A stretch of DNA of 64,000 nt, from assembly GCF_001953175.1 (NCBI RefSeq), contig NZ_CP018258.1, forward strand, positions 896,210 to 960,209, read 5' to 3'. This DNA comes from Dehalogenimonas formicexedens. Lineage in GTDB: Bacteria; Chloroflexota; Dehalococcoidia; Dehalococcoidales; Dehalococcoidaceae. Below, in pieces: positions 1,553 to 11,650 of this stretch (position 1 is the first letter of the stretch; each line of letters starts with the position of its first letter). The notes beneath the pieces are model-generated. The model saw only the letters and a list, made by a program, of their open reading frames with translations. It was not told where the DNA came from and searched no databases. The translations under genes were made by a program, and so were the position numbers.

Positions 1553-3130
1553 ATGAAAAAGGTATTAGTTGCGGACGCTCTTTCAGCAGCCGGGGTCGAA
1601 CGGCTCAAGGCTATCGCCGAAGTTGACGTTAAAACCGGTCTCAAACCGGAAGAACTGATCGCTATCGTCGGTAGTTATGACGCCCTGCTCGTCAGGTCGC
1701 AGACCCAGGTTACCGCCGATGTCATCAGCGCAGGCAAAAAGCTGCAGGTTATCGGCCGCGCCGGAGTCGGTGTCGATAATATCGACATAAAAGCCGCGAC
1801 TGAAGCCGGAATCATTGTCGTCAACGCCCCAACCGGGAATACTATATCCGCCGCGGAACACACCCTGGCCCTGATGCTATCCATGGCGCGGCATATTCCC
1901 CGTGCCAATTCCTGCCTCAAAGGCGGCGTTTGGGAGCGGGGCAAGTTCCTAGGGACCGAACTTCGCGGCAAGACGCTTGGCATTATCGGCCTGGGGAACA
2001 TCGGCTCTGAAGTAGCCAAACGGGCCCGGGCTTTCGAAATGAAAGTGATTGGGTACGATCCTTTCGTTTCAGCCGAACGCGCCAAGAACATGCAGATCGA
2101 ACTGGCTTCACTGGAAAGAATCTACAAGGAAGCCGATTTTATCACCCTGCACGTACCGCTTACCGCACAGACCAAGAATATGGTCGGCGCTAAAGAATTG
2201 GAAATGATGAAACCCACCGCCCGCATTGTTAACGCCGCGCGGGGCGGTCTTATCGATGAAGAGGCACTGGTAGCCGCCGTAAACGCCAAGAAATTAGCCG
2301 GGGCAGCCATCGACGTATTCATCAAAGAGCCGTGCACCGATAACGTCTGTTTCGCCGCCGAGAATATCGTGGTCACGCCGCACCTCGGCGCTTCAACCAT
2401 CGAAGCTCAAGACCTGGCGACATCGGATGTTGTCGACCAGGTGATCGATATCTTCAACGGCGCTCCGGCCCGCTACGCGGTTAATGCCCCGTTCTTCGCC
2501 ATCGAAGCCCTGCCGGTAATTAATCCGTTCCTGAAAGTAGCAAACACTGTCGGCAAGCTTGTTTCTCAACTGGCCGAAGGACAAATGACAGCGGTCAATA
2601 TCAAGTATTCCGGCGAAATCTCCGGTTATGACAGCCGGGCGCTGAAAGCCCTGGTGCTCGGCGGCATCCTCGAGCAGATATCCGAAGAACGTGTAAATAT
2701 GGTCAACGCGGACATCGTCGCCGCCCGGCGGGGGATGAATATCACCGAACAGAAAGAAAGCGCCTGCGACAATTACGCCAGCATCATCACCGTTGAAGCG
2801 GTCACCACCGAAGGCAGCACCATCGTCGCGGGTACGATTACCCGGGGTGAAACCCACATTGTACGCATCGATCAATACTACCTGGATATCGTTCCCACCG
2901 GCGGCTATTTCCTGTTCGCTGACCACCGGGACCGCCCTGGGCTCATCGGCGCGGTCGGCAGCATCACCGGAAAATATGACGTCAACGTCAGCTACATGCA
3001 TCTTTCACGGCTTAAGCCGCGCGGCCAGGCGCTGATGATCCTTGCCCTCGATGAAGCTCTACCTGACGCCGGGATGAAACAGATCCGGGCGCTCGAGGGT
3101 GTGCAGACCGTCAAACTGGTGAAGATATAG
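1553..3130 (+). CDS. serA: D-3-phosphoglycerate dehydrogenase
   Basis: A 525-residue long-form SerA that oxidises 3-phosphoglycerate to 3-phosphohydroxypyruvate with NAD, the first step of serine synthesis. In order it shows the N-terminal substrate-binding half, a Rossmann fold with GIIGLGNIGSEVAKRA (about residues 142-157), the catalytic Arg in NAARGGLIDE, the Glu in FIKEP and the His in TPHLGAST. An intervening allosteric-substrate-binding domain (about 325-440) and a C-terminal ACT domain with GGYFLFADHRDRPGLIG follow. Length and layout match Bacillus/Mycobacterium-type SerA, where the ACT domain senses serine. It lies between the aminotransferase and pdxT on the same strand. Confidence 0.96.
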   Translation: MKKVLVADALSAAGVERLKAIAEVDVKTGLKPEELIAIVGSYDALLVRSQTQVTADVISAGKKLQVIGRAGVGVDNIDIKAATEAGIIVVNAPTGNTISAAEHTLALMLSMARHIPRANSCLKGGVWERGKFLGTELRGKTLGIIGLGNIGSEVAKRARAFEMKVIGYDPFVSAERAKNMQIELASLERIYKEADFITLHVPLTAQTKNMVGAKELEMMKPTARIVNAARGGLIDEEALVAAVNAKKLAGAAIDVFIKEPCTDNVCFAAENIVVTPHLGASTIEAQDLATSDVVDQVIDIFNGAPARYAVNAPFFAIEALPVINPFLKVANTVGKLVSQLAEGQMTAVNIKYSGEISGYDSRALKALVLGGILEQISEERVNMVNADIVAARRGMNITEQKESACDNYASIITVEAVTTEGSTIVAGTITRGETHIVRIDQYYLDIVPTGGYFLFADHRDRPGLIGAVGSITGKYDVNVSYMHLSRLKPRGQALMILALDEALPDAGMKQIRALEGVQTVKLVKI

Positions 3131-3143
3131 CCTGGGGCGAAGC

Positions 3144-3746
3144 ATGAAAATCGGCGTTTTAGCGATGCAGGGGGCTTTCGCCGAGCATATAGGCGTCCTT
3201 CAGCGCCTGGAAATCGAAGCCGTTGAGGTTCGCAAGATCGATCAACTCGACGATCTCGCGGGGCTCATCATACCCGGTGGCGAAAGTACCACCATGCTCA
3301 AACTGGCCGATATCTATCGTATAAACGAGACGGTAAAAACGAAGGCGTCGGCGGGACTGCCGGTATGGGGCACTTGCGCCGGAGCGATACTTCTCGCGGA
3401 TGAAGTCACCAACGCCGGGCCACATATGCCGGTGAGTCTGGGATTGATGCGGATGACCGTCCGCCGCAACGCGTTCGGGCGCCAGGTAGACAGTTTCGAG
3501 GTCAAGCTCCCCGTAGCAGGCCTCGGTTGCGAGCCCTTCCCCGCCGTTTTCATCAGGGCGCCGCTTATCGAGAGCGTTTTGCCTCCGGCGGAAGTGATGG
3601 CCAGGCTCGGTAACGGAACTATCGTGGCCGTCCGCCAGGGTAACCTCCTTGCCACCAGTTTCCACCCGGAACTATCGCTTGACGACAGGTTTCACCGTTA
3701 CTTCATAGGAATGGCGGAGACCTATCTGGCCCAGAAGCGCGCCTAG
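3144..3746 (+). CDS. pdxT: Pyridoxal 5'-phosphate synthase glutaminase subunit
   Basis: A 200-residue class-I-like glutamine amidotransferase that supplies ammonia to the PLP synthase subunit PdxS. The triad is visible: Cys78 in WGTCAGAI and His174/Glu176 in SFHPEL, with the PGGESTT loop near residue 45. It starts 13 bases after serA, which puts PLP supply next to a PLP-dependent aminotransferase. The partner pdxS is not in this window. The stop overlaps the convergent DUF1015 gene by four bases. Confidence 0.95.
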   Translation: MKIGVLAMQGAFAEHIGVLQRLEIEAVEVRKIDQLDDLAGLIIPGGESTTMLKLADIYRINETVKTKASAGLPVWGTCAGAILLADEVTNAGPHMPVSLGLMRMTVRRNAFGRQVDSFEVKLPVAGLGCEPFPAVFIRAPLIESVLPPAEVMARLGNGTIVAVRQGNLLATSFHPELSLDDRFHRYFIGMAETYLAQKRA

Positions 3747-5044
3747 TCGCGCAGCCGATAAACCACTATCCCCGACGGCAACTTGGGGTAAAAGTACGTG
3801 CTCTTGCGCGGCATCCTGTCTTTGGCATCCGAAATTGCCTGGATCGTTTCCGGCTTGACTGGTTTGAGGATAAAGGCGAATTGGAACTCACCCGACTTGA
3901 CCCGTGAAATGGTCGAGTCCATATCATGATCGTAAGCCACTCGCTCCTCGTCCATGGCGTTCATGCCGAGGATGTCCTCCAGGACAACGTGGTCTACGAC
4001 ACTGACATCCATGCCGCGATAAGTTGCCGTATGGCCCGATGGCATAAAGCCTTCGACTTTGGGCTGATTCTTCACCGTCAGGCTCAAAATATCGTCGCCG
4101 CTCAAGCCAAAAATGAAGAAGCGCGAACTATCCTCAGCCATCAGCGTCTTCAGGTTTTCCCAACCGCCGTTTGAGGCTTTCAAAGTCTCGACGTTGAAAT
4201 GCTCCCGGAGGCGTTCCGGCAAGATATAGAGCAGGTTTTTGGACAGACCTTTTATCACGCGATGAGTCGGCAGGATCAACAAGCCGGGATCAGCCATGTC
4301 AGTGAGCGACATCATCACGAAATTAACCGCCGCATCCGGCGGAATTTTTGGATCAAGGTTATTCCGTTCGTTCCGGTAAGCCAACGAACTCTCATAGCGG
4401 TGGTGGCCGTCGGCGATGTAGATCGGTTTTTCGGTGAAGGCGCGCTGGATAGCCGACACGGCTTCAACATCGGTGATGACCCACAGGCGATGAGACTCTC
4501 CCGGTTCACCGGCAAATTCGATCGCTTCAGGCCAGGCGGTCACCTGGTCCAGGACGGAACCGATGAACCTGCCATCATCCTGGTACAACCCGAAGACCGG
4601 GCTGGTGTCAGCTTCCAGGGTGCCGATGAGTTTGATCCGGTCTTTTTTCGGTCCGGCCATGGTCCGCTCGTGGGGACGAACAATCATCTTATCCCATTCT
4701 TCCAGCCGAACCCGTGCGAACAACCCACGCCTGATGACTTTCTCCCCACCGAAGGTGTAAGTGTGCTCGTGAAGATAGTAAGCGGGTTTATCATCCTGCT
4801 TCAATACCTCGTCCCGCAGCCACTTCTGAAGATGGGATAAGGCCCGGGTGTAACGGTTGCAGGTTTCATCATCGCCGGGGATCGTTTTAGCGTATTCGAT
4901 GCGGATGAAGTTGTGCGGATCGTTTGCCAGGAGAGCCGCTTCCTGCTGCGGACTGATCACATCGTATGGAGGGCAGATTACCGCGGACATATTTTCCGTC
5001 GCCGTGTTGTAGCGGAGAGCCTTAAAGGGTCGAATATCAGCCAT
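3743..5044 (-). CDS. DUF1015 family protein
   Basis: A 433-residue protein of the DUF1015 (COG4198) family, function not established. Family marks are the PPYDVIS motif near residue 25 and ADGHHRYESSLAYRNERN in the middle. There is no signal peptide or membrane segment, so it is probably cytosolic. From memory, DUF1015 genes in many anaerobes lie next to serA and its aminotransferase, which is also true here although on the opposite strand and convergent with pdxT. The catalytic-looking His-His-Arg cluster suggests an enzyme, but no substrate can be named from sequence. Confidence 0.85.
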   Translation of the reverse strand: MADIRPFKALRYNTATENMSAVICPPYDVISPQQEAALLANDPHNFIRIEYAKTIPGDDETCNRYTRALSHLQKWLRDEVLKQDDKPAYYLHEHTYTFGGEKVIRRGLFARVRLEEWDKMIVRPHERTMAGPKKDRIKLIGTLEADTSPVFGLYQDDGRFIGSVLDQVTAWPEAIEFAGEPGESHRLWVITDVEAVSAIQRAFTEKPIYIADGHHRYESSLAYRNERNNLDPKIPPDAAVNFVMMSLTDMADPGLLILPTHRVIKGLSKNLLYILPERLREHFNVETLKASNGGWENLKTLMAEDSSRFFIFGLSGDDILSLTVKNQPKVEGFMPSGHTATYRGMDVSVVDHVVLEDILGMNAMDEERVAYDHDMDSTISRVKSGEFQFAFILKPVKPETIQAISDAKDRMPRKSTYFYPKLPSGIVVYRLRD

Positions 5045-5106
5045 TGAGTTCCTTTCTAAACCTTAAGAAAGCCGTAAGTTTACCCGATTGTGACCGGTTG
5101 TTCAAC

Positions 5107-7745
<2,639 letters not shown>

Positions 7746-7992
7746 TTATATCACAATTGAGATTGAGTGTCAGGTCTGCCTGTCTTTGATATTTGTTTGG
7801 GCCCTGATAATGAAATTCACCGAAACGACTCCATTATTCAGCTTTGAGATTTTGCGACTCATACTCGCAGTCGTCTGGAACAAACAATTCAAACAATCCG
7901 GACAACTCGGACAATCTTGCTTTCAGTAATCATTCTACTAATACCAATTTCGAGGGGTTGTAGCGGCTTGGAATTCATGCCGGAACCAGGCG

Positions 7993-8014
7993 CGGGCGAG
8001 CAGCCGCTCGCCCG
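7993..8014. repeat. Inverted repeat, 9-bp stem
   Basis: CGGGCGAGC, loop AGCC, then GCTCGCCCG forms a perfect 9-bp GC-rich hairpin. No T-run follows on either side, so it is not an obvious terminator. It resembles the palindromic core of a dispersed REP-like element, as does the hairpin at 34139-34159. Confidence 0.6.
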
Positions 8015-8203
8015 TACCCCCAACCCAACCCCTTTTGCCTCGGAGTTTTATTCAAGGATCATTACCAAGGACCTCTCCTTCATTTCCTCTTCCACTCGGG
8101 AGCGAAGGAAGACCTTTCTAATTTGTTATTCCGAGTCCCAATATTACCGGCGAAAAATCTGGGAGCTTCTCTTTCGGGGAATGCACGGTTTCGAGGGCAA
8201 CAC

Positions 8204-8231
8204 CGAGATTCTTCGCTACGCTCAGAAAGAC
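8204..8231. repeat. Dispersed repeat copy (GAGATTCTTCGCT..CAGAA.GAC)
   Basis: A roughly 27-base sequence sharing most positions with the copies at 31406-31432 and 35748-35774, with one mismatch in the CAGAATGAC end. It is intergenic like the others. Confidence 0.65.
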
Positions 8232-8451
8232 AAAGAGGCATATGGAATCGAAGAGAACTAGACATTATAGCACTAGTGTTCACTGGGTTTGTCAAGCGGC
8301 TCGTGACGTTTTTGGTGGATTATTTTGTTATGTAAATCAAGATTCAGGATTAAAAGCCGGCAGACAGTCTTTTGCCATATTGAATTGGTCTGCCCGCGGA
8401 TTTATGATTAGTCATCGGCCTATATATCCCATCACGGAGGTTTAAGGCTAA

Positions 8452-9123
8452 TTGACTGACGTAATAAAGGTGGTAATTGCCGATAGCGAAGAGGTCTTCG
8501 TCCAGGGCCTGGAGAAGATCTTGACAGAGCACCCACAAATTCAGGTGGTTTCACGGTGTCATAAATCTGAAGAGATCGTGCAAGAAGGCAGGCGGATACA
8601 CCCTGATGTTCTCCTGGTTGAAGACGAACTTACTGGAGAAGAAACTGCTTCTTTTGTGAAATCCGTGACAGAGGATTGTCCTGAAACTAAAATCGCAATT
8701 CTTAAAAGACAGGGAGAAATCAATGACGGATTTTCTGGCCTGAAGGCTGGGGCCAGGGCCTATCTTTCAAAAAATATCTCTCCCGAAGATTTGGTTAAGT
8801 CTATTGAATTGATTTCAAGCGGGCGTATCATCATCTCTCCCGTATTTGCCCAACAGTTCACCGACAGCCTCAACACACGAACTATGATGGAAGAGCACCC
8901 GTCTGGAGAAGAAGTCACTCAAAGGGAGCGAGAGGTGGCAACGATGATCGCGCACGGTAAAACGAATCGTGAAATTGCAACGGAACTTTACATTTCCGAA
9001 AACACCGTGAAAATGCATGTCAAAAACACGCTCGGGAAACTCGAACTGAAAAATAGGCAACAATTGTCGGTTTATGCGGTCCTCCACGAATGGATAAGAC
9101 AAGAGGATAAGCCTCACCTTTAG
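8452..9123 (+). CDS. LuxR/NarL-type response regulator with atypical receiver domain
   Basis: A 223-residue protein with an N-terminal receiver-like domain (about 5-125) and a clear C-terminal LuxR helix-turn-helix (about 155-215; TQREREVATMIAHGKTNREI and ISENTVKMHVKN). The start is a TTG preceded by CACGGAGG. In the receiver, the position of the phospho-accepting Asp reads Glu57 (LLVEDEL), the paired acidic residues at the N-terminus are reduced to A10-D11, and the switch Thr/Ser is Lys85; the conserved Lys107 is kept. It may therefore not be phosphorylated conventionally. Asp58 lies directly after Glu57, so a one-residue slip cannot be excluded. No histidine kinase is adjacent. A strong terminator follows. 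Confidence 0.88.
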   Translation: MTDVIKVVIADSEEVFVQGLEKILTEHPQIQVVSRCHKSEEIVQEGRRIHPDVLLVEDELTGEETASFVKSVTEDCPETKIAILKRQGEINDGFSGLKAGARAYLSKNISPEDLVKSIELISSGRIIISPVFAQQFTDSLNTRTMMEEHPSGEEVTQREREVATMIAHGKTNREIATELYISENTVKMHVKNTLGKLELKNRQQLSVYAVLHEWIRQEDKPHL

Positions 9124-9146
9124 TCGCGGGAAAATATTGATACTCT

Positions 9147-9186
9147 AACCGAAGGGATTACTTAAAGGTAATCCCTTCGGTTTTTT
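9147..9186 (+). terminator. Intrinsic terminator after the LuxR-type regulator
   Basis: AACCGAAGGGATTAC (9147-9161) pairs with GTAATCCCTTCGGTT (9168-9182), a perfect 15-bp stem followed by a run of T. It separates the regulator from the downstream genes. Confidence 0.92.
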
Positions 9187-9242
9187 CAAAATGCCCCTTT
9201 TGGGGAATAGGCAACAAACAGAATTGGAGGCAAAATATTCGT

Positions 9243-9557
9243 ATGGACACAGTGACTTTGTCGGTAAGTCCAAAAGCTGTTGGTAAGCTGAAAGATATAC
9301 TGGCCGAAAGATGCCGCAACAGAGGTATCGGATTCCGTCTCCTGCCAACCGCGGGGCGAGAATCGCCAAACGGGCTCACAATAAAACTGGACAAGGTCAC
9401 CGAGGCAGATAGGATCATCCTTGTAGGTGAAATGTTAATCTTCGTCGAGCCGGCGGTACTTAAACAATTCAACGGGTGGCGGCTGGACTATTCCGAAAAT
9501 GAGGACGTTGGATTGTGTTTGATGAGAACAAACGGCAAACGACCGGAGATCGAATAA
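9243..9557 (+). CDS. IscA/HesB-like (A-type) fold protein lacking the cluster cysteines
   Basis: A 104-residue protein that follows the A-type Fe-S carrier pattern: VTLSVSPKAVGKLKDILAER at the start, a middle strand region, and FVEPAVLKQFNGWRLDYSEN near the end. The three cysteines that bind the cluster in IscA/ErpA (one in the GGCSG loop, two near the C-terminus) are absent; the corresponding loop reads TAGRESPNG. It therefore has the fold signature but not the metal site, and its role is unknown. GGAG upstream in a GAATTGGAGGC context supports the start. It opens the short gene run that ends in the CetZ-like gene and usp. Confidence 0.7.
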   Translation: MDTVTLSVSPKAVGKLKDILAERCRNRGIGFRLLPTAGRESPNGLTIKLDKVTEADRIILVGEMLIFVEPAVLKQFNGWRLDYSENEDVGLCLMRTNGKRPEIE

Positions 9558-9605
9558 ATAAAAATCGTCGCACGCGATAACAATTGTTGGAAAGGAGGTC
9601 GAAAT

Positions 9606-9782
9606 ATGCTGTGCCGCCATTGCAACCGGAACAGGTATCCATGCAAGTGTCCCAGCGCCTCCCGCGGGATCAACTCGTGTCGATTCTTTATTCGACGCAT
9701 CGCCGCGCCTTGGGGATCAAGCGCGCTTCGCTTCCCGGTGACTTCCGCAATAGCCAGGACATTGAAGCTAGCGAATATTTAA
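9606..9782 (+). CDS. Small Cys-rich ORF (58 codons), tentative
   Basis: An ATG lies 7 bases after the strong AAAGGAGG site at 9591-9598. The product starts MLCRHCNRNRYPCKC, a knuckle-like cluster of four cysteines, with a fifth at position 25, and has no recognisable remainder. An overlapping frame (open 9584-9901, internal ATG at 9641) runs nearly to the CetZ-like gene and encodes a more ordinary-looking second half. Either frame, or a frameshifted combination, could be the real gene. Not recognised; the spacing suggests co-transcription with its neighbours. Confidence 0.35.
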   Translation: MLCRHCNRNRYPCKCPSASRGINSCRFFIRRIAAPWGSSALRFPVTSAIARTLKLANI

Positions 9783-9949
9783 GCGAGGTCCCGCCTGGTG
9801 GGTCAACTCTCATTATTGAATTCGAACTCCGAACTTCCGAGCGAGAAATATGCTCAACGAGGACCGGTCTAACAGGAAGGCAATTGGACACCTGGGTTTG
9901 AAATAACCAAAGAGTCGTATCTACTTCAAAACGATAAGGAGGCAGTCAA

Positions 9950-11056
9950 ATGAAACTCATGGTTATTGGTTTAGGACAGTGCGGCGGCCGTCTAGCCGAC
10001 GATTTTATCACTCTACAGAAACGGGCTCACGATTTTCGAAAAGTGGAAATCCTGACTGGTGTTTATGTGGTAGACACGGACGCCTCTTCACTCCGGGGGC
10101 TATCGCAAGTGCCCCAAAAAAACCGATTGGTAATTGGTGAAAATAAAACCCGCGGCAGGGGAGTGGGCAGACAGAGCGAAGTGGCGGCGCAAATTGCTCG
10201 CGATGAGGGATTCAAGGTTATCGATGCAATCAGACAATCCAAGCGATTTGCTGAATCCGATGCCTTTCTTCTGGTTGGGGCTACCGCCGGTGGTACTGCC
10301 GCAGGGTGTATGCCGGTTATCGCTGAAATCTTGAAGGAAAGGTTCCGCGATCTCCCGGTATACGGAATTGAGGTATTACCCTTCGAGCATGAAGAATCTT
10401 TGGAAAAGATCAATGTCACGAACACTGCGTATTGCCTGGTTAACTCCAAGGCGAACATGGACGCGGTTTTCGTCATCGACAACCAGCGGTATGCGAAGAA
10501 AGGTTTGTCCTGGAGTTCCAATATTTCCGAAATCAACCGTGCCATCGTTGAGCCATTTTATGGGCTCCTTTGCGCAGGTGAAGAAAAGAAGCGGCAGCAC
10601 ATCGGCGTCAGTATGTTATCAACCAGTGATGTCCAGAGCATGTTGAGTGGATGGACAACTATTGGATACGGCAAGACCTTGATACCGATGATTACTTTGC
10701 CATGGGATAAGCAAGGTGATGAGACGACCAGCGGCCGCAAGGCAATGGAGGAGGCCATCAGCGAACTTTCGGTTCAGTGTGATACCAAGCAAGCAACCAA
10801 GGCTATGTATCTGGTTTCTGCTCCTGAAAAGGAGATTGGTACTGACCTCGTCAAATACCTCGGGGAGTTTATGAAGAGTATAGCTCCTGAAGCGCCTATC
10901 AGGTACGGCGATTATCCGGTCGAAAAAGGACTGGTTGATGTGACGGCGGTCCTATCTGGTTTCCCGACTTTCGAAAAAATCCAAGGGTATTTTACATCTA
11001 TGGACAAGCAATTGGCTGAAATGCCTAAAGCGAGCGAAGTCCAAAAGGTGGCATGA
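9950..11056 (+). CDS. CetZ-like tubulin/FtsZ-superfamily GTPase
   Basis: A 368-residue protein starting MKLMVIGLGQCGGRLADDF, almost the same pattern as archaeal CetZ (MKL..IG.GQ.GG...D.F). Further matches are VDTDASSL, GRGVG (69-73), the tubulin glycine loop as AGGTAAG (113-119) followed by MPVIAEILK, VYGIEVLP, the FVIDNQRY segment, a T7 region STSDVQSML..TTIGYG with Asp227 at the catalytic position, and RYGDYPV in the C-terminal half. It is not canonical FtsZ: there is no NLDFAD motif and no conserved C-terminal tail. The glycine loop departs from GGGTGTG, so nucleotide handling may differ. A strong AAGGAGG precedes the ATG. Assignment to the superfamily is firm; the CetZ affinity is by comparison with recalled CetZ1 sequence. 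Confidence 0.85.
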   Translation: MKLMVIGLGQCGGRLADDFITLQKRAHDFRKVEILTGVYVVDTDASSLRGLSQVPQKNRLVIGENKTRGRGVGRQSEVAAQIARDEGFKVIDAIRQSKRFAESDAFLLVGATAGGTAAGCMPVIAEILKERFRDLPVYGIEVLPFEHEESLEKINVTNTAYCLVNSKANMDAVFVIDNQRYAKKGLSWSSNISEINRAIVEPFYGLLCAGEEKKRQHIGVSMLSTSDVQSMLSGWTTIGYGKTLIPMITLPWDKQGDETTSGRKAMEEAISELSVQCDTKQATKAMYLVSAPEKEIGTDLVKYLGEFMKSIAPEAPIRYGDYPVEKGLVDVTAVLSGFPTFEKIQGYFTSMDKQLAEMPKASEVQKVA

Positions 11057-11110
11057 CACTAATACCCGGGATTGAGAAAACTAATTTTACCGATTACCGG
11101 GGGAACAGCT

Positions 11111-11539
11111 ATGTTTAATAAGATACTGGTATGTCTTGATGGTTCAAAAGAATCCGAAAAGATTTTGCCCTATGCTGAGGCTCAAGCCAAAGCCTTCGGT
11201 AGTCAATTATGTCTCGTTGAATCGGTTGGACTTGGAGTTATGCAGTCGCAAGATTTCCGCGCTCCCGATCTTCAAAAAAAGCTTGAGAATGAGGCAGTTG
11301 GTTATCTGGCGATGAAAGCAGCCGAGCTTCGCTCTAAAGGGCTAAAAGCCGAATATTCAGTTTTCCGTTCAAACGAAGCTGGCGAATCAATATTGGACTG
11401 CGCCGAAGAAGGAGGATACGACCTTATCGCGCTGGCAACCCATGGCCATTGTGGCTTGGTTAAATTCCTTAGCGGAAGTGTCGCTGATCATCTCCTGCAC
11501 AAGTCCAATGTGCCTCTTATGATAATAAAATCAGGTTGA
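11111..11539 (+). CDS. Universal stress protein (UspA family)
   Basis: A 142-residue Usp domain protein. The start at the ATG at 11111 (MFNKILVCLDGSKES) is preferred to an upstream TTG because the family begins exactly there and GGGGGAA precedes it. The ATP-binding pattern is intact: THGHCGLVKFLSGSVADHLL fits G-2x-G-9x-G-S. Length is typical. It follows the CetZ-like gene by 54 bases and closes the module. No terminator was seen after it. Confidence 0.93.
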   Translation: MFNKILVCLDGSKESEKILPYAEAQAKAFGSQLCLVESVGLGVMQSQDFRAPDLQKKLENEAVGYLAMKAAELRSKGLKAEYSVFRSNEAGESILDCAEEGGYDLIALATHGHCGLVKFLSGSVADHLLHKSNVPLMIIKSG

Positions 11540-11650
11540 TAAACCGAAACCCCCACTTTCGTGTAACACCTAGCAGTGAAACCTCGGTTCTTCGGCTTTC
11601 AGCTTAGGCTAAATAACGCCACAGTATTTTGCCCGCAAACGAATCCCGAT

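Follow-up and report, generated by a model that had tools for sequence, protein, structure and literature searches.

A CetZ-like tubulin-superfamily protein with an altered nucleotide pocket in Dehalogenimonas formicexedens

The CetZ-like gene and the segment that carries it

The window analyzed here is a 64,000-nucleotide stretch of the Dehalogenimonas formicexedens genome (contig NZ_CP018258.1, positions 896,210 to 960,209 of the forward strand), and coordinates are positions within it unless a contig is named. The gene of interest, its domains and loops, and its immediate setting are as follows:

7774..11627, no strand: 3.85-kb segment that its closest relative, G200, does not have (nucleotide alignment)
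9950..11056, + strand: CetZ-like tubulin-superfamily protein, 368 aa, ATG start (domain, sequence, tree and fold evidence)
9956..10492, + strand: Tubulin/FtsZ GTPase domain, residues 3-181 (PF00091, 1.7e-26)
9968..9988, + strand: T1 loop GLGQCGG; CetZ-type Q10 in place of the G of FtsZ
10070..10093, + strand: T2 loop VDTDASSL; N42D and D47S depart from 99-100% of relatives
10151..10168, + strand: T3 loop RGRGVG; H70R departs from 99% of relatives
10277..10306, + strand: T4 glycine loop GATAGGTAAG; G117A and S118A, relatives xGGTGSG
10475..10486, + strand: T5, IDNQ; base-contact Asn178 kept
10517..10984, + strand: CetZ_C domain, residues 190-345 (PF21011, 1.2e-11)
10535..10537, + strand: N196 kept, Asn in CetZ versus Asp in FtsZ
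10619..10633, + strand: T7 loop STSDV; first Asp gone (S224), second acid D227 present
11105..11539, + strand: universal stress protein (USP), 48 bp downstream of the CetZ-like gene on the same strand

An earlier, sequence-only reading of this DNA had quoted seven motifs from the frame at 9950-11056, and all are present in the order given: MKLMVIGLGQCGGRLADDF, VDTDASSL, GRGVG, AGGTAAG, FVIDNQRY, STSDVQSMLSGWTTIGYG and RYGDYPV. The Pfam matches of the protein are far above chance level, with 94.1 bits for Tubulin (PF00091; cut-off 33, E 1.7e-26) and 44.9 bits for CetZ_C (PF21011; about twice the cut-off of 21.6, E 1.2e-11). Among PDB sequences, the top matches are two Haloferax volcanii proteins, CetZ1 (4b46, 7.9e-36) and CetZ2 (4b45, 5.1e-25).

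On either side of the segment at 7774-11627, the window aligns without a break to G200, its closest relative among complete genomes (enolase 91%); the segment itself corresponds to about 14 bp there. The segment encodes a LuxR-type response regulator, an IscA-like open reading frame (ORF), a 105-aa ORF, the CetZ-like protein and the USP; the IscA-like ORF (9243-9557, 104 aa) has a weak similarity to IscA/HesB that falls below the cut-off (E 0.005). The GC content of the segment genes is 0.45-0.54, versus 0.56-0.57 for ligA, eno and GAPDH on its flanks, and neither repeats nor mobility genes were found at the segment ends. The segment is best taken as an insertion, probably acquired by transfer; a loss in G200 is less likely. 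Because no CetZ was found in G200, the CetZ-like gene is dispensable in the genus. In genome G083, the same gene occupies another place and has a host-like GC content, and among relatives in general CetZ-like genes often adjoin GAPDH or dnaX. The neighborhood of the window gene itself lends no support to the shape or membrane role that the earlier reading had assigned to the protein.

CetZ affinity and position within a Dehalococcoidia family

Sequence, tree and fold agree that the protein is CetZ-like rather than an FtsZ, as had been proposed. It scores 47 bits against the NCBIfam ftsZ equivalog model, for which the threshold is 295.2. The FtsZ marks that had been described as missing are indeed missing: T7 reads MLSTSDV in place of the FtsZ motif N-x-D-x-x-D, and the C-terminus, EVQKVA, contains no docking peptide. 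The AlphaFold2 model, built from an alignment of 71 relatives (pLDDT 90.8, pTM 0.90), contains the tubulin core. In VIA-align, this model ranked closest to CetZ1 (Z 44.9, rmsd 1.6 over 326 residues) and CetZ2 (Z 44.2), followed by 3zid (37.7), FtsZ (Z ≤35.1) and tubulins (Z ≤34.1). In a 101-row tree, which like all trees here was a quick search with long stems and had no TubZ sequences among its rows, bacterial and archaeal FtsZ were split from every CetZ-like row with an SH-aLRT of 100. The NCBIfam score, tree position and fold ranking together rule out FtsZ proper as the identity of the protein. The FtsZ of the same genome shares the tubulin GTPase domain with it and belongs to a separate clade with 100% support.

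The likeness to CetZ is nonetheless partial. The protein resembles H. volcanii CetZ1 and CetZ2 in fold and in both domains, and has in common with them the T1 pattern GxGQxGG, the DN of T5, N196 and an R-x-GDxP motif near the C-terminus; D227 is the equivalent of CetZ1 E218. It is only 25-29% identical to them, however, and differs in T4 (AGGTAAG versus GGGTGSG), in T7 (SxxD versus DxxE) and in the absence of an archaeal-type C-terminal tail. At 44 columns that split archaeal CetZ from FtsZ, picked from our own alignment in an approach after Brown and Duggin (PMC9856176), the protein has the CetZ residue at 13, the FtsZ residue at 7 and neither at 24, so that the majority of CetZ-specific residues are lacking. 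Given how few CetZ residues it has at these columns, the protein is CetZ-like and not a canonical CetZ.

CetZ has been termed archaea-specific in recent papers (PMC9856176, PMC11621097). CetZ-like proteins were, however, listed for Chloroflexota-Dehalococcoidia by Santana-Molina et al. in 2023, who also found their C-terminal homology to CetZ (PMC9871819), and these are very probably the same family as the window protein. CetZ_C is present in 105 of the 393 Dehalococcoidia genomes; in a sample of the phylum it was found in 22 of 350 genomes, all 22 within Dehalococcoidia. Relatives of the window protein occur in nearly all sampled genomes of its order (105/121), with 1-5 paralogues per genome. 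The class-wide family that had been predicted is thus real, but its presentation as a new bacterial branch does not stand, since CetZ-like proteins of Dehalococcoidia had already been reported (PMC9871819).

In the 101-row tree, this family (family A) forms one clade on a long stem, with a support of 100 and the window protein inside it; the support is 94 in a tree of 73 rows from which long rows were left out. Within family A, the window protein and those of genomes G083, G189 and G405 form a branch with 100% support (the window branch). The G083 and G189 proteins are 76% identical to the window protein and one G405 protein is 59% identical; all others are at most 53% identical. Other Dehalococcoidia carry a second, more archaeal-like CetZ set (set B, L004-L013). 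Its identity to archaeal CetZ, from Hecatellales, Nitrososphaeria and other groups, reaches 51%, and it falls among these sequences in the 101-row tree. CetZ residues occupy 35% of the discriminating columns in family A and 59% in set B. Two separate origins of bacterial CetZ, one for family A and one for set B, could not be established: grouping the two as a single clade is compatible with an AU test (p 0.81), and the tree constrained in this way scored even better. The Dehalococcoidia family falls with CetZ in the FtsZ/CetZ split, yet is not canonical archaeal CetZ.

Three further observations were made in the course of this survey. In three loci of the second CetZ set (L004-L013, L104-L112), the neighbors are, judged by eye, a small protein that looks secreted, an MBL-fold-like protein and a symporter-like protein. 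An unclassified archaeal contig (L149) carries three clustered CetZ/FtsZ-like genes (3001-4140, 4128-5165 and 5972-7101), two of them very divergent. Viral contigs as long as 246 kb contain only six weak tubulin-like relatives (L264-L269, 23-31%).

Remodeled pocket, C-terminal tail and coiled-coil neighbors

At positions that are 99-100% conserved among 67 relatives, the window protein differs by N42D, D47S, L61V, H70R, G117A, S118A and D224S. Most of these seven substitutions sit in T2, T3, T4 and T7, mostly around the nucleotide pocket, whereas Asn178, Asn196 and D227, the second acid of T7, are retained. The second acidic residue of T7 is thought to be catalytic in tubulin-like proteins. 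The G083 and G189 proteins are altered at the same sites, with Ala as residue 224; the G405 protein has all the changes of the branch except S118A, with Glu at 224. The altered glycine loop that had been noted is therefore real in the window protein but confined to its small branch; a family-wide alteration is ruled out, as relatives outside the branch keep GGTGSG. Between the G083 and G189 genes, dN is 0.011 and dS 0.279 (dN/dS about 0.04); between the window gene and that of G083, dN is 0.179 with dS saturated, and enolase of the same pair has a dN of 0.149. The window branch is under purifying selection.

The branch also differs at the C-terminus. A [DE]-[ILV]-P-[ST]-L-L tail or a close variant, most commonly DIPSLL, ends 86 of the 90 family-A proteins (83 under a stricter pattern), which are related and hence not independent sequences, and is present in none of the four members of the window branch; it is a common trait of family A, not a defining one. 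In a structure model of a Dehalococcoides-like paralogue, the tail follows a 35-residue helix. FtsZ C-termini in these genomes carry ELEIPAFLR or ELDVPSFLR, and the resemblance between the DIPSLL tail and the docking peptide of the FtsZ in the same genome suggests a shared docking partner. FtsA was found in all five genomes tested by Pfam search; SepF was found in none of the five, which speaks against it as the tail partner. No convincing MreB was detected in the five genomes either, the partial matches being confined to long DnaK-sized frames and FtsA. The genome that contains the window (2.09 Mb, one contig) has two other tubulin-family genes, both true FtsZ and each adjoining FtsA, and no second CetZ. 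The two FtsA-FtsZ pairs lie at C1:625264-626417 and C1:1573262-1574439, and relatives have two pairs as well.

Tailed paralogues of one CetZ subclade have a recurrent neighbor. In 14 contexts, a coiled-coil protein of 440-910 aa is encoded convergently (tail to tail) with a CetZ paralogue, 59-809 bp apart, and the pairing occurs in several different surroundings (L067, L070, L073, L075, L079, L081, L084, L087, L090, L091, L093-L095 and L122). A Pfam search gave no family for these proteins, whose C-termini share the conserved motif R-[LM]-[ED]-x-L-x-x-M-[YF]; L071 was left out of the set, as it showed low-complexity similarity alone, 3.2 kb off, and no C-terminal motif. A BLAST search with one member as the query yielded matches in genomes with tailed paralogues and none in the window genome, G083, G189 or G200. 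It yielded none in G365 either, although tailed paralogues are present there; therefore, either the association is not general or the search lacks sensitivity. At seven loci, a second coiled-coil gene, encoding about 170 aa, lies beside a CetZ paralogue.

The main text of Santana-Molina et al. (PMC9871819), as far as it was available to us, describes neither the DIPSLL tail, the paralogue groups and the coiled-coil neighbor nor the altered branch. In the literature covered, no description was found of the order-wide paralogues, the confinement of CetZ_C to Dehalococcoidia within the phylum sample, the tail, the coiled-coil pairing or set B, and nothing useful was found on tubulins in Dehalococcoides proteomics.

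A putative scaffold with slow nucleotide turnover

We tentatively read the window protein as a GTP-binding CetZ-like scaffold or cap with a remodeled pocket and weak hydrolysis and filament turnover, with a probability of roughly 0.45. The protein most likely binds guanine nucleotide and, as in other tubulin-fold proteins, most likely self-associates head to tail, which would place the active site between subunits. From the changes in T2, T3, T4 and the first Asp of T7, together with the absent docking peptide, we infer weak hydrolysis and turnover; slow turnover would in turn make the protein a static cytosolic scaffold or cap instead of a membrane-tethered dynamic filament. Consistent with this reading are the CetZ affinity and position outside FtsZ, the fully supported branch with its common pocket substitutions, the kept Asn178, Asn196 and D227, the loss of the tail (0/4 versus 86/90) and the purifying selection. 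Published work on FtsZ indicates which way such changes act: in yeast, the D209A variant of E. coli FtsZ aggregates instead of forming filaments, and a thaumarchaeal FtsZ whose T4 and T7 are altered fails to polymerize (PMC3684127). These precedents are FtsZ proteins, however, and point to the absence of a polymer as much as to a static one. Several other points weigh against the static scaffold: hydrolysis may be normal, since the second T7 acid is kept; the pocket changes may be compensated in ways that sequence does not reveal; CetZ signature residues are present just in part; and no other CetZ and no coiled-coil protein that could partner a scaffold were detected in the window genome.

In a rather unlikely alternative, the protein is a CetZ-type cytoskeletal GTPase with full activity and determines cell shape, as the earlier reading had it, and the pocket changes are neutral or compensate one another. 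The strong CetZ match in fold and domains, the second T7 acid, both base-contact Asn residues and the purifying selection all fit such a protein, and a further shape protein would be useful because no MreB was found; yet conserved pocket residues and the tail were lost in the window branch only, and G200 survives with no CetZ at all. The changes in T4 and T7 could instead have turned a CetZ into an adaptor or sensor that binds GTP but does not polymerize, perhaps acting with the co-directional USP. Comparable defects do abolish filaments in FtsZ proteins (PMC3684127), and the order CetZ then USP recurs in G405, a member of another family. Against such an adaptor, which we consider unlikely, the window and G405 USPs are just 27% identical, the gene has no USP beside it in either G083 or G189, and the fold is intact in the AlphaFold2 model. 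Loss of polymerization is nevertheless a real alternative to the reduced turnover that we prefer. It is highly improbable that the gene is degenerating and without function, carried on a mobile segment: the low-GC segment missing from G200 and the lost conserved residues and tail are what such a copy might display, but the frame is open, the fold is predicted with high confidence, dN/dS is about 0.04 between G083 and G189, and the same changes recur in four genomes, one of them from another family.

The static scaffold thus remains our preferred reading of a protein that is a derived exception within the CetZ-like family of a known, little-studied bacterial group. On a broader and quite doubtful view, Dehalococcoidia, with no MreB found in the five genomes searched, may run a multi-paralogue CetZ cytoskeleton whose tailed members dock by the FtsZ-like DIPSLL tail, perhaps on FtsA, and which has a coiled-coil partner in one subclade; the window branch would have evolved out of this system and would use nucleotide differently. 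If CetZ-like proteins form a bacterial branch that is widespread, rich in paralogues and equipped with an FtsZ-like docking tail, the role of CetZ in a bacterium becomes directly testable. The family also bears on shape control in cells without detected MreB, and the altered pocket of the window branch amounts to a natural experiment on tubulin-fold proteins.
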